Below, in pieces: positions 2,963 through 28,457 of a stretch of 64,000 bases of DNA; position 1 is the stretch's first letter, and every line of letters starts with the position of its first letter. The stretch lies in assembly GCF_007004725.1 (NCBI RefSeq), contig NZ_ML660165.1, positions 62,001 through 126,000 on the forward strand, written 5' to 3'. The stretch is from Aliikangiella coralliicola. GTDB taxonomy: Bacteria > Pseudomonadota > Gammaproteobacteria > Enterobacterales > Kangiellaceae. A program made the translations under genes and the position numbers. Below the pieces are notes generated by a model. The model saw only the letters and a program-made list of their open reading frames with translations. It ran no database searches and was not told the DNA's origin.

Positions 2963-3157
2963 AACCCTATTTATAAACCTTGCTAATTTTGCCAAATCAA
3001 AAGACCGGCAATTATCGCTAAAAACAGCCACAATTACCAAGTTATTCGAATAATCTTTTCCGCTCGTTCAAAGAACAAAATTATTCTTTATCATTCAAGC
3101 TGTTAGCTTTTATTCACACGTTGGCAAGGTTCTATTCTTTCTCCAGACTCAATTTTG

Positions 3158-3234
3158 TGTCACATAAATTGACCGGTAAAGTCACATAAGCTTAACAAAC
3201 TGGTCATTTTTTAGTCACACATACAGGACATACT
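3158..3234 (+). promoter_or_regulatory. Phased 11-bp repeats resembling Pho boxes (PhoB sites)
   Basis: Seven consecutive 11-bp blocks start at 3158, 3169, 3180, 3191, 3202, 3213 and 3224. Blocks 1, 3, 5 and 6 carry GTCA at the same offset: TGTCACATAAA, AGTCACATAAG, GGTCATTTTTT, AGTCACACATA. Block 2 (TTGACCGGTAA) is a weaker match. The PhoB box is a direct repeat of CTGTCAT-like heptamers with an 11-bp period and AT-rich spacers. The pair at 3202-3223 is closest to it. The array ends about 9 bp before TATGAA (3243-3248), a possible -10. It lies 74-150 bp upstream of the PAP2 start, so phosphate-starvation control of that operon is inferred. Confidence 0.55.
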
Positions 3235-3307
3235 GGCCCTGCTATGAAATCTATCAAACTCTTAATCAAACAATCGTGTTTTGAATATTATTTCAGGGTG
3301 GCTAACA

Positions 3308-3835
3308 ATGGGTATAAATAAGTCACGATTTCAACAGGCTGATACTGACGCATTTTTGTGGGTACAGCGAAAGTTCTGTAAAAAAACTTATATGCCGATT
3401 GTTCGAATGCTCTCGCGAACCGGCGATGGATGGTTGTACGCGATTATCGCCTTTTCATTACTGGGCTACGACTATCAACAACATCAGAATTTTTTCTATT
3501 CGTGCTTACTTGGTTTTGCACTAGAAGTACCGCTCTACATGATATTGAAAAACAAATTCAAGCGAAATCGACCGCAAGACTACTTGCAGAATTTTCAGGC
3601 GAAAATCAATCCATCAGATCAATTTAGCTTTCCGTCTGGCCACACTGCTGCAGCTTTTGTTATGGCAGTTCAAATACTGATCTTTTTTCCCGCTTTTGCA
3701 ATTCTAGCAATCGCTTGGGCAACAATGATCGGGTTTTGTCGAATACTGTTAGGTGTCCACTTTCCCGGGGATATTTTCGCCGGAGTCATGCTTGGTGTGT
3801 TATGTAGCTTTTTGGCTGGCGCAATCATTTTATAA
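3308..3835 (+). CDS. PAP2-family membrane phosphatase
   Basis: The 175-residue integral membrane protein has a complete PAP2 active-site signature: K81-x6-R88-P89, P109-S110-G111-H112, and R145-x5-H151-x3-D155. PAP2 enzymes of this size remove phosphate from lipid phosphates such as phosphatidate, phosphatidylglycerol phosphate or undecaprenyl diphosphate; which one applies here cannot be read from sequence. Several hydrophobic segments flank the motifs. I chose ATG 3308 because AGGGTGG sits 6 bp upstream; a TTG at 3281 is in frame but lacks such a site. The next gene starts 68 bp later on the same strand, suggesting one operon. Upstream Pho-box-like repeats suggest induction by phosphate limitation. 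Confidence 0.85.
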   Translation: MGINKSRFQQADTDAFLWVQRKFCKKTYMPIVRMLSRTGDGWLYAIIAFSLLGYDYQQHQNFFYSCLLGFALEVPLYMILKNKFKRNRPQDYLQNFQAKINPSDQFSFPSGHTAAAFVMAVQILIFFPAFAILAIAWATMIGFCRILLGVHFPGDIFAGVMLGVLCSFLAGAIIL

Positions 3836-3903
3836 CCGGGCATGAATAAAACAGCTGTCAGAAAACAAATTAAAAAAATTGAACAATTAACAAGAGTCGC
3901 TTG

Positions 3904-4974
3904 ATGAAAATATTGTACGCAGTTCAGGCAACCGGTAACGGTCATATTACTCGTGCCAGAATTATGGCGAAAGCTTTCAAGAAACTAAATATTGATGTCG
4001 ACTGGATATTTACCGGGAGGCCGAAAGAAGACCTTTTTGACATGGAACCATTTGGTGACTTTCAAGTCTACAGGGGAATGACTTTCGCGATAAAAAATGG
4101 CACCATCGATTATATTGCTACGATTTTTAAAAATAATATTTTTCATTTTCTTCGCGACGTTTTCCGTGTTCGTTTTGATGATTATGATCTCGTTATCAAC
4201 GATTTTGAACCCGTCACAGCCTGGGCGGCAAAGCTCAGAAAAGTAGAAACAGTTGGAATATCTCATCAAATGGCGTTTTCAAAACAAGTTCCAATTGCGG
4301 GCAAAAATTTTATCGCTAACTTAGTGCTGAAAAACTTTGCACCGAGCAGCCAGCGAATTGGGCTTCACTGGAACGATTTTGAAGAATCACTGTTACCGCC
4401 AATTATCGACAATGATATTGTCGCAAACAATCTTTCTCCAAAGGAAGTGTTAGTCTACTTTCCTTTTTGTGAAGCAGAAAAGCTAATCGAATGGTTTGCA
4501 CCTTTTAATGATTACAATTTTCATATTTTTCATGGTAGTAATCAAACATCAGGCTACAATCATATTAACTTTTACCACTTTTCACGGTCAGACTTTCAAG
4601 ATAAACAGAAAAGCTGTGGTGGCATTATCACTGCAGCAGGATTTGAATTACCAAGTGAAGCAATTCAGATGGGACATAAATTATTAGTGATGCCATTAGA
4701 AAATCAAATGGAACAACAATCAAACGCGTTAGCGCTTAAACAATTAGAAAGAGCGCATGTATTACATCACTTTTCAAATAAGGAACTAAAAAAATGGTTA
4801 CAAGCACCTTTACAGACACCGAAACCTTATCCAGACGTCGCCTACGAACTGGCGAAATGGCTTGTCAATTCCAAAAACGAATCATTAGAAAACTTAAGCA
4901 AAAGACTCTGGCAAAAAACAGCCGAACCTATTGGAGAAAATGAGTTAAACCTCCAAAAAATTCTTTGTCAGTAG
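3904..4974 (+). CDS. MJ1255/VC2487-family glycosyltransferase (GT-B fold)
   Basis: The 356-residue protein begins MKILYAVQATGNGHITRARIMA, with the Gly-rich N-terminal loop of MurG-like GT-B enzymes (GNGH). Its C-terminal donor-site region has GGIITAAGFELPSEAI, MPLENQMEQQSNA and related residues (about 235-280). This is the pattern of the uncharacterised MJ1255/VC2487 family; donor and acceptor are unknown. It follows the PAP2 gene closely and probably shares its promoter. A phosphatase that could release diacylglycerol next to a glycosyltransferase suggests glycolipid synthesis, which is inference. A TTG one codon upstream is possible, but ATG 3904 is preferred. Confidence 0.8.
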   Translation: MKILYAVQATGNGHITRARIMAKAFKKLNIDVDWIFTGRPKEDLFDMEPFGDFQVYRGMTFAIKNGTIDYIATIFKNNIFHFLRDVFRVRFDDYDLVINDFEPVTAWAAKLRKVETVGISHQMAFSKQVPIAGKNFIANLVLKNFAPSSQRIGLHWNDFEESLLPPIIDNDIVANNLSPKEVLVYFPFCEAEKLIEWFAPFNDYNFHIFHGSNQTSGYNHINFYHFSRSDFQDKQKSCGGIITAAGFELPSEAIQMGHKLLVMPLENQMEQQSNALALKQLERAHVLHHFSNKELKKWLQAPLQTPKPYPDVAYELAKWLVNSKNESLENLSKRLWQKTAEPIGENELNLQKILCQ

Positions 4975-5114
4975 CCAAAATTCTTTCAGTCTCACTTAAC
5001 AATAAAGGTGATTAAGTTGCATTGGCATCTATAAACTTCTTCGCCCCCCGCAATTATAGCACCCGCAATACTTGCAACTTGCAACCATTCTGAAATATCG
5101 ACGTAATTATTTGC

Positions 5115-5120
5115 TACACT
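5115..5120 (+). promoter_or_regulatory. Candidate extended -10 promoter element for the first GGDEF gene
   Basis: TACACT at 5115-5120 is preceded by TGC, giving the TGn extended -10 arrangement. The segment CTACACTTCAATATAGCGA recurs almost unchanged upstream of the second GGDEF gene (TACACT at 6074-6079), which supports a shared, duplicated promoter. No convincing -35 is seen. The inferred transcript would start near 5127, at the base of the folded leader. Confidence 0.35.
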
Positions 5121-5124
5121 TCAA

Positions 5125-5219
5125 TATAGCGATATATAAGTTACTTTAAGAAACGCCACATTCGTGGCGCAGTAAATTATTTGTCCTGATTTAAGGACTT
5201 GTTAGTGTATATCGCTGTA
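5125..5219 (+). promoter_or_regulatory. Predicted structured 5' leader (three-way junction) upstream of a diguanylate cyclase
   Basis: An outer 12-bp stem pairs 5125-5136 (TATAGCGATATA) with 5208-5219 (TATATCGCTGTA), with one G-U wobble. It encloses two hairpins. The first pairs TTACT (5141-5145) with AGTAA (5171-5175) around CGCCAC(ATTC)GTGGCG at 5154-5169. The second is GTCCT(gattta)AGGAC at 5183-5198. The RNA would end 39 nt before ATG 5259, which has no obvious ribosome binding site; an ATG CAC TAA minimal frame lies at 5248-5256. It matches no riboswitch class I can recall, and I do not see the c-di-GMP-I or c-di-GMP-II cores. Confidence 0.45.
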
Positions 5220-5258
5220 GCATTATCTGATTGTTAACCTAAACTCGATGCACTAAAA

Positions 5259-6008
5259 ATGGATTTACAGAGAAAAATAATACAAATAATTCCTAAGCCT
5301 TATCTGGTGCTGTTAATTTCAACTTTCTCTATGATAATGGCGTTGGCACTGGATGTTGTGCTTGTTTGGATCCTAAATTATGATTATCGAACAGAGGATT
5401 TAATAGGCGCCATCGTTCTACCATTTTTAGTTGCGCCGGTTATCTCCTGGTATACGCTAGAAATTCTCTATGAGGTCGACCGACTCGAAGTAGAGAAAAA
5501 GAAAGCTGCGACTTATGACTCATTGACAGGCTTACTGAACCGCCGGGCATTTATTCAATCCTGTAACTCAATATTTGAGTTGGCAAAACGTAACAAGCAA
5601 CATTGTTGTCTGATTGCTATTGACATCGATTTTTTTAAAAAAATAAATGACACTTTTGGTCATCAAGCAGGAGACAACGTGTTGGCGGAGTTCGGTAACA
5701 TAGCCAAAACCCATGCAAAAACCTGCGACCTTGCAGGAAGGCTCGGTGGAGAAGAATTCGCTTTTTTTCTTCCTAAAACGTCACTTCAACAAGCTAAAAT
5801 ATTAGCGGAAAAACTTCTAAGCGCAGCAAAAACCGCAGAAATAATCTATGACAACGCGAAAATTCAATTAACGATCAGCATCGGAATAGCCACAACCAAT
5901 GGACAATCCCATACTTTGCAAAACTTATTAAAAAACGCTGACCAAGCCCTTTACCACGCAAAGCATAGTGGTCGAGACCAACTATCCGTTTTCCAGCCTG
6001 TATCCTGA
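5259..6008 (+). CDS. Membrane-anchored diguanylate cyclase (GGDEF)
   Basis: The 249-residue protein has two N-terminal membrane segments (about 15-38 and 46-66), a short linker and a GGDEF domain from about 85. The catalytic loop is GRLGGEEF, with GGEEF at 163-167. The metal and substrate motif IDIDFFKKINDTFGHQAGD is intact, so c-di-GMP synthesis from two GTP is expected. The inhibitory-site position reads KTCD (154-157) rather than RxxD, so product inhibition may be weakened. A close paralogue follows at 6171. No sensor domain apart from the membrane region is seen. The upstream leader can fold into a three-way junction. Confidence 0.9.
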   Translation: MDLQRKIIQIIPKPYLVLLISTFSMIMALALDVVLVWILNYDYRTEDLIGAIVLPFLVAPVISWYTLEILYEVDRLEVEKKKAATYDSLTGLLNRRAFIQSCNSIFELAKRNKQHCCLIAIDIDFFKKINDTFGHQAGDNVLAEFGNIAKTHAKTCDLAGRLGGEEFAFFLPKTSLQQAKILAEKLLSAAKTAEIIYDNAKIQLTISIGIATTNGQSHTLQNLLKNADQALYHAKHSGRDQLSVFQPVS

Positions 6009-27812: not shown

Positions 27813-28457
27813 ATGATTTTTACCTTAATCATGCAGGGCCAGTTCGAACAAGCAGTCCTTTTAATTATTGTCATTGTTATATCTTTATCATTTCATGAAT
27901 TTGGCCATGCATGGACAGCGAACAAGTTCGGCGATAACACCGCGGAAAGGCAAGGAAGATTAACTTTAAACCCTGTAGCCCATATTGATCCTATGGGTTT
28001 GTTATTGGTGGCAATGGTTGGATTTGGTTATGCTAAACCGGTACCGACTGATCCGAGAAACTTCAATTCACCTAAGGCTTCGCTCTGGATCAGCGCGGCA
28101 GGGCCCGGCATGAATTTATTGCTTGCTTTTCTTTCTATCAATCTGCTGGTGGCTACGCAAGTTTTTCAAATCGATTTACTCAACGGCATGGGACCATTCA
28201 TTTTCTTGCAGTATATGGTCTTTATCAATTTGTTACTGATGCTATTTAATTTACTGCCCATTGGGCCGCTTGACGGCCACTATATCCTTCCCTATTTCCT
28301 ATCAAGGGATAATGCGTATAAGTATGTACGCTGGAATGATCAATACGGCGCTTTTATTTTACTGAGTTTGGTGGTGTTAAGCTTTTTGGGTGTTCCGATT
28401 TTTTCTTTTCTGAGTCAACTTGCCATGAGTATTGCCCAATACCTGGTAATATTTTGA
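27813..28457 (+). CDS. Site-2 protease-family (M50) membrane metalloprotease
   Basis: The 214-residue multi-pass protein has the zinc motif HEFGH (28-32), the NPVAHIDPMGLLLVA segment (about 54-68) and a late LLPIGPLDGHYI, which supplies the third metal ligand Asp. This is the short, PDZ-less rhomboid-sized M50 group. Family members cleave within membranes, but many of this subgroup have no known substrate. It is preceded closely by a single-pass membrane protein, a conceivable partner. Confidence 0.85.
   Translation: MIFTLIMQGQFEQAVLLIIVIVISLSFHEFGHAWTANKFGDNTAERQGRLTLNPVAHIDPMGLLLVAMVGFGYAKPVPTDPRNFNSPKASLWISAAGPGMNLLLAFLSINLLVATQVFQIDLLNGMGPFIFLQYMVFINLLLMLFNLLPIGPLDGHYILPYFLSRDNAYKYVRWNDQYGAFILLSLVVLSFLGVPIFSFLSQLAMSIAQYLVIF

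Follow-up and report, generated by a model that had tools for sequence, protein, structure and literature searches.

A 64,000-nucleotide stretch of the Aliikangiella coralliicola genome, referred to here as the window, carries a gene for a PAP2-superfamily membrane phosphatase next to one for a glycosyltransferase (GT) of the uncharacterised MJ1255/VC2487 family, behind an array that resembles Pho boxes. This arrangement raises the question of whether the two enzymes make a glycolipid when phosphate is short. A sequence-only reading of the locus proposed that they could do so in place of the phospholipase PlcP and the glycosyltransferase Agt. Lipid remodelling by PlcP and Agt is established (PMC4796936, PMC8528852, PMC8231724, PMC9239053), and PlcP-based remodelling has been described as widespread in marine bacteria (PMC4796936). 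Our analysis suggests, with a probability of about two in three, that the pair is a PhoB-switched unit for turning phospholipid into glycolipid, in which the GT would take the place of Agt and would be fed by both PlcP and the PAP2 phosphatase. The features of the locus are collected in Table 1.

Table 1. Features of the PAP2-GT locus, with positions in the window
Feature	Position	Strand	Basis
Pho-box-like array, six half-sites at exact 11-bp steps	3157..3218	+	Shuffles and doublets before the pairs of relatives
PAP2-superfamily membrane phosphatase; proposed phosphatidate phosphatase yielding diacylglycerol	3308..3835	+	PF01569; substrate predicted
MJ1255/VC2487-family GT-B-like glycosyltransferase; proposed diacylglycerol glycosyltransferase	3904..4974	+	TIGR00661, GT-B-like model, PlcP/PAP2 linkage in relatives; acceptor and sugar predicted

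An intact PAP2 phosphatase stands beside a GT-B-like glycosyltransferase

The PAP2 protein (175 residues) scored 77.4 bits against PF01569, for which the cut-off is 27.2 bits. Its catalytic motif was complete (K81-x6-R88-P89, PSGH at 109-112, and R145-x5-H151-x3-D155), the residues being assigned with what we take to be the three-part pattern of PAP2 enzymes, and they were invariant across 29 aligned sequences. The ATG start has a GGTGG-like ribosome site, as judged by eye; an in-frame TTG at 3281 is also possible. Throughout the 7.04-Mb window genome, this protein was the single PF01569 match at an E value of ≤0.001. Its AlphaFold model (mean pLDDT, 95.2) lay nearest to the solved structures of B. 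subtilis PgpB and Aquifex LpxE. When the PAP2 profile was compared with the sequences of solved structures, Aquifex LpxE was the best match (2.3e-18); in the structural comparison, its TM-scores were 0.79 and 0.84. The protein fell under the cut-off of every named equivalog, namely the undecaprenyl-diphosphatase SepP, which gave its top NCBIfam score (54 of 250 bits), PgpB (PRK10699; 38.9 of 261 bits), the undecaprenyl-diphosphate phosphatase PRK11837 (35.6 of 229 bits), and LpxE (21 of 177 bits).

The GT (356 residues) scored 211.2 bits against TIGR00661 (cut-off, 195.9 bits), and its AlphaFold model was GT-B-like (mean pLDDT, 92.4). Solved structures near this model included YojK, MurG, and the sterol glucosyltransferase UGT51 (Z, 21.4 to 22.1; 12 to 15% identity). 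UDP-GlcNAc 2-epimerases lay just as near (Z, 21.7), and the fold thus gives neither the activity nor the acceptor. Plant MGDG synthase was absent from the 50 structural neighbours listed, and the GT profile recovered MurG alone, at an E value of 0.42, from the sequences of solved structures. The window GT had no match to the GT28 Pfam domains PF03033 and PF04101 at an E value of ≤1. Among 31 members of the GT family, 2 touched the GT28 models weakly (best E value, 0.012) and 15 touched the GT4 N-terminal domain weakly (best, 6.7e-6), so that calling the MJ1255/VC2487 family "non-GT4" means only that it is not close to GT4 enzymes. The BLAST similarity of the window GT to the PlcP-linked glycosyltransferase of P. 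aeruginosa was insignificant (E value, 0.96).

The two genes are 68 bp apart; a scan of 3041-5260 gave four terminator-like sites, all of them outside this gap. Two overlapping promoter-like matches begin at 3887, within the gap, and a separate second promoter for the GT gene is possible; the locus had 8 promoter-like sites, compared to 5.8 expected by chance. Upstream of the pair lies rdgC, on the opposite strand, and two GGDEF genes follow downstream. The four neighbours scanned encode RdgC, the two GGDEF proteins, and a tRNA-editing-domain protein, with no polymer gene among the four. Thus, the claim that an intact PAP2 enzyme adjoins a GT-B-type glycosyltransferase was borne out.

The pair is preceded by a conserved Pho-box-like array

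The half-sites of the array, 7 bases each and all in one register, read GTGTCAC, ATTGACC, AAGTCAC, GCTTAAC, TGGTCAT, and TAGTCAC, and the array ends 89 bp before the PAP2 ATG. They were scored against a CTGTCAT-like consensus that, like its weights, we set ourselves. The six-site score of 36.2 was reached in 13 of 1,000 dinucleotide shuffles, and a spacing of 11 scored best among spacings of 8 to 15. The best single doublet was unremarkable (153 of 1,000 shuffles). On both strands of the 64 kb, one further site reached an equal six-site score, at 27857; it sits within an open reading frame (27813-28457) and was taken as a chance match.

We then scored 92 loci with an adjacent same-strand PAP2 gene and at least 160 bp of upstream sequence, two genomes being counted twice. 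The mean best doublet was 16.41 at a spacing of 11, compared to 13.46 to 13.91 at nine other spacings, 13.07 on the reverse strand, and 12.57 (SD, 0.08) in shuffles. Doublets over the 95% shuffle threshold preceded 83 of the 92 pairs (9 were under it), compared to 5 of the 92 controls, which were stretches following the GT stop codon. It is this conservation across relatives that makes the window array convincing, since its own sequence is only moderately significant. The Pho-box array claimed by the sequence-only reading therefore held at the sequence level. PhoB itself is encoded in the window genome, with a score above the curated cut-off, and the pair is likely to be under PhoB control, as judged from these matches. 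The PhoB model gave 151 response-regulator-like matches at an E value of ≤0.001 in this 7-Mb genome, whose signalling set looks large.

PAP2 genes lie directly upstream of most GT genes

We investigated how often the two families occur together. In a set of 119 genomes, made up of the window genome (G000) and 118 relatives, TIGR00661 was matched in 62 at an E value of ≤0.001, and in 45 over the cut-off. Gene order was examined at 110 loci, 30 from this set and 80 named ones (the best 80 of 585 confirmed relatives). A PAP2 gene lay directly upstream of the GT gene at 92 loci by script and at 93 once L102, whose start the script overlooked, had been added by inspection; the count without two duplicate genomes was 91 of 108. 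A strict PAP2 motif pattern found adjacency in just 12 of the 80 loci, and a profile search was used in its place. The pair was present in named Shewanella, Vibrio, Photobacterium, Marinomonas, Marinobacterium, Methylobacter, Methylomonas, and Nitrosomonas (L082). A class-wide even sample of 369 genomes gave a similar picture of pairing for a GT that was rare: it occurred in at least 10 genomes, and PAP2 adjoined it in at least 8 of those 10. At most 5 or 9 candidates were scored per genome, and these counts may be low; moreover, one of the matches was weak (G153, 141 bits), and three genomes (G000, G045, and G069) are shared with the 119-genome set.

The loci without a PAP2 gene directly upstream comprised six from Gilliamella or Gilliamella-like bacteria (L025, L030, L069, L086, L095, and L110) and L033, L045, L048, L057, L065, L067, L068, L071, L078, L080, and L089, the upstream sequence of L067 being just 186 bp long. 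In L025, L030, L069, and L086, the GT gene lies upstream of a gene that by eye resembles one for dihydrofolate reductase. Two Gilliamella-like GT genomes that were checked (G085 and G104) had no match to PlcP or to BacA. An open reading frame beside the GT gene in L057 was considered as PhoX and dropped, as it had no Pfam match.

PlcP is encoded in the same genome and accompanies the GT in relatives

The proposal that the pair acts instead of PlcP had to be rejected for the window genome, since PlcP is encoded there, on a different contig from the pair (match, G000:C3:136491-137237; gene, L141:5968-6804). The protein is 46% identical to P. aeruginosa PlcP, and its gene has half-sites of its own at 11-bp steps, 60 to 82 bp before the start. 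What stood of the proposed role in lipid remodelling is the link to phosphorus sparing, which is supported by the genomic linkage to PlcP described below. In the P. aeruginosa record used for this comparison, plcP and a glycosyltransferase gene share a four-base overlap. We take this pair to be PA3219-PA3218 from the gene order and from the text of PMC8528852, and not from locus tags. That arrangement has been published for plcP and the glycosyltransferase gene of P. aeruginosa (PMC8528852). With our scorer, an array at 11-bp steps was also found ahead of plcP in P. aeruginosa, a gene for which a Pho box has been reported (PMC8528852).

An OlsF-type gene (L141:1995-3728) lies 2.2 kb from plcP of the window genome on the same strand, with an opposite-strand gene between them. 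Its 578-residue product combines an acyltransferase and a GNAT domain, a make-up that we take to be that of OlsF. The proximity of the two genes suggests that the aminolipid and glycolipid responses stay linked, and the window bacterium probably draws on both when phosphate is scarce. OlsF-type genes were also seen beside plcP in L147, L149, and L150 (L141 and L150 were checked with Pfam).

To follow PlcP through the relatives, we used the PlcP of a Nitrosomonas-type cluster as the query and counted matches of more than 100 bits as strong. A strong match was found in 38 of the 119 genomes, the window genome included. Five of these 38 (G081, G091, G095, G110, and G113) had a separate weak match besides PlcP, probably LpxH, indicating that PlcP was told apart from LpxH. 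The GT was present in 48 genomes, and 33 had both proteins, compared to 15.3 expected; 15 of the 48 GT genomes were without a strong PlcP match, and the 5 PlcP genomes without the GT all belong to one genus. At the family level, all 9 families with PlcP fall among the 14 with the GT, out of 27 (P = 4e-4, with kinship ignored). Similarly, in the class sample, PlcP accompanied 9 of 10 GT genomes, compared to 2.8 expected. The four GTs of a Vibrio-like family (f21) are 59 to 62% identical to those of named Vibrio loci, and their genomes had no strong PlcP match, the only one being of 23 bits, in G101. In this family, the pair may work without PlcP, as first proposed.

Close linkage to PlcP is the exception and not the rule: PlcP lay inside the fetched flanks (1.5 to 8 kb, shorter at contig ends) at 8 of the 110 loci. 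Where linkage occurs, the arrangements vary. The order was PlcP-PAP2-GT, all collinear, in G366; PlcP-patatin-PAP2-GT-diacylglycerol-kinase-like in G439 and in Nitrosomonas L082; and PlcP divergent from PAP2-GT in G095. In G033, PlcP directly follows the GT, a Pho-like doublet precedes the two, and PAP2 is not nearby; G472 has the order PlcP-GT. In G092, the PlcP frame contains a stop codon and the GT is cut off by the end of the contig. PlcP, a patatin-like lipase, and a diacylglycerol-kinase-like protein flank the GT in L048, L068, L071, L082, and L193 (Nitrosomonas and related bacteria). The patatin-like lipase of L082 scored 123 bits against the CBASS lipase model, whose cut-off is 200. 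PlcP and PAP2 genes within 6 kb of each other were found at least 13 times in the 369 genomes, in 11 cases without an MJ1255/VC2487 GT alongside.

Agt-type enzymes are rare in these genomes

Some PlcP clusters pair PAP2 with GT4-like genes. In G219 (L190), PlcP and a GT4-like gene are joined by a PAP2 (222 bits) from the subfamily that pairs with the MJ1255/VC2487 GT. More distant PAP2 proteins (114 to 125 bits) occur in the PlcP/GT4-like clusters of L191, L194, and L196; L191 and L194, at 114 and 115 bits, have the order GT4-PlcP-PAP2-GT4. The GT4 of L196 is 48% identical to the PlcP-linked glycosyltransferase of P. aeruginosa, and it is on this likeness and on mutual similarity that the GT4 label of the L190, L191, L194, and L196 proteins rests. 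These clusters indicate that the association of PlcP with PAP2 persists where the glycosyltransferase is a different one. The ordinary PlcP-Agt pathway may thus also include PAP2 as a component that has been overlooked. A plcP-glycosyltransferase locus was also seen on three P. aeruginosa plasmid records (NZ_CP137508, CP075839, and NZ_CP042268), possibly as a chromosomal segment on a plasmid.

When the GT4 proteins of L191 and L196 were used as queries at an E value of ≤1e-20, a threshold that covers close relatives, they matched 2 genomes and 1 genome of the 119, respectively, the L196 query being of the Agt type. Neither had a match in the window genome at this threshold. Of the two proteins that the pair was proposed to replace, PlcP is thus encoded in this genome, and a close relative of Agt was not found there.

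Proposed function of the pair and alternative readings

In the glycolipid reading that we favour, PhoB would bind the array when phosphate is short, and the pair would be made. On the cytoplasmic side of the inner membrane, the GT would move a sugar from a nucleotide sugar onto diacylglycerol. The product would be a glycolipid free of phosphorus, and the GT would thus fill the role that Agt, a GT4 enzyme, has in Pseudomonas, SAR11, and Agrobacterium. The diacylglycerol would come from two sources: PlcP, behind its own Pho-box-like array, would split old phospholipids, and PAP2 would release phosphate from phosphatidate or a similar lipid phosphate. The PAP2 active site is probably periplasmic, by homology to PgpB and LpxE. 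Diacylglycerol crosses the membrane unaided, while lipid A and undecaprenyl phosphate do not, and it would therefore be the acceptor that most easily links a phosphatase in the periplasm with a transferase in the cytoplasm. Two sources would also explain why the GT can occur with PlcP but without PAP2 (G033 and G472) or with PAP2 but without a strong PlcP match (f21). The lone GT of Gilliamella-like genomes is outside what this reading explains.

We weighed other acceptors and other purposes. The rank of SepP as the top NCBIfam score of the PAP2 protein and the presence of MurG, which acts on lipid I, among the structural neighbours of the GT would fit a pair that works on carrier lipids. PAP2 would then recycle undecaprenyl diphosphate, and the GT would glycosylate undecaprenyl phosphate or a similar carrier towards an envelope polymer needed at low phosphate. 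The SepP score is far below its cut-off, however, and the genome has its own BacA/UppP-type undecaprenyl-diphosphatase (C4:269463-270230), which ruled out PAP2 as the enzyme needed for that step. The scanned neighbours offer no polymer genes, and the linkage to PlcP, OlsF-type, and diacylglycerol-kinase-like genes would be left unexplained; we consider this reading unlikely. That linkage to PlcP would be equally unexplained if an LpxE-like PAP2 stripped a phosphate from lipid A and the GT capped the site with a sugar, saving outer-membrane phosphate. Aquifex LpxE is indeed the top solved-structure match of the PAP2 profile, but the LpxE equivalog score is low, and the two enzymes would sit on opposite sides of the membrane: GT-B enzymes that use nucleotide sugars act in the cytoplasm, and LpxE acts after flipping. 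We regard a lipid A role for the pair as very unlikely, although for either protein taken singly both a carrier lipid and lipid A are possible substrates.

A further alternative keeps diacylglycerol as the acceptor and changes the purpose: the glycolipid would serve mainly something other than phosphate saving, such as membrane curvature or growth on chitin, with PhoB as one input. It draws on a ChiS ChIP peak reported upstream of VC2487 in V. cholerae (PMC11856585). The conserved 11-bp array and the co-occurrence with PlcP argue against it, and we hold it to be quite unlikely.

The glycolipid reading can be taken further. MJ1255/VC2487 proteins would then form a second, non-Agt class of diacylglycerol glycosyltransferases. 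This class would stand in for Agt across much of a gammaproteobacterial order and also outside it, alongside a dedicated phosphatidate phosphatase under PhoB control. Glycolipid would be made both from phospholipid scrapped by PlcP and from newly made phosphatidate, and in PlcP-free Vibrionaceae the pair alone would make glycolipids that have so far gone unnoticed. We give this extension somewhat less than even odds. Two reports on V. cholerae, which carries the family namesake VC2487, stand against the favoured reading as well as this extension. At low phosphate, ornithine lipid was reported to reach about 90% of membrane lipid, in an analysis described as using a phospholipid library and an ornithine-lipid database, by which glycolipids may not have been sought (PMC13157583). 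In acetate-labelled thin-layer chromatograms at 4.2 mM phosphate, the figure legends name PG, PE, CL, and OL only (PMC12186959). This untargeted labelling is more telling against a glycolipid than the former study, and the lack of a named glycolipid weakens both readings, with the limit that 4.2 mM phosphate is a mild limitation.

Relation to known systems and significance

The proposed system shares with PlcP-Agt (in Phaeobacter, SAR11, Agrobacterium, and P. aeruginosa, PA3219-PA3218/PA0842) the kind of PlcP, the Pho-box-like control, and a PlcP-linked glycosyltransferase in some relatives. It differs in that the window GT is not Agt, in that PAP2 is added, and in that PlcP is on another contig in the window genome. 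The OlsF response of V. cholerae and Serratia likewise yields a phosphorus-free lipid at low phosphate, and an OlsF-type gene lies near plcP in the window genome; however, the product of OlsF is an aminolipid and not a glycolipid, and the enzymes differ. For type Ia methanotrophs, a B. subtilis-type diacylglycerol glycosyltransferase has been described near plcP, with no agt beside plcP (PMC9239053). That enzyme, like the window GT, presumably has diacylglycerol as its acceptor and stands in for Agt beside plcP; its description as B. subtilis-type sets it apart from the window family, which touches GT28 models only weakly. Moreover, plcP has been reported beside "some putative glycosyltransferases" and in other arrangements without any (PMC4796936). 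The open-access literature that we searched gave no report of the PAP2-GT pairing, nor of the MJ1255/VC2487 family or PAP2 in the PlcP pathway. What appears to be new here, on genomic evidence, is thus the candidacy of these two families as parts of an otherwise known remodelling by PlcP.

In the order of the window genome, where PlcP is found in 38 of the 119 genomes and an Agt-type match in one, the MJ1255/VC2487 GT would be a specific candidate partner for PlcP. An uncharacterised glycosyltransferase family thereby gains a candidate function that can be tested in tractable laboratory strains, and the putative PAP2 step would be an addition to descriptions of the PlcP pathway. In P. aeruginosa, the glycolipids of this pathway have been reported to affect sensitivity to polymyxin (PMC8528852), and in light of that effect the presence of such glycolipids in other bacteria would be of wider interest.
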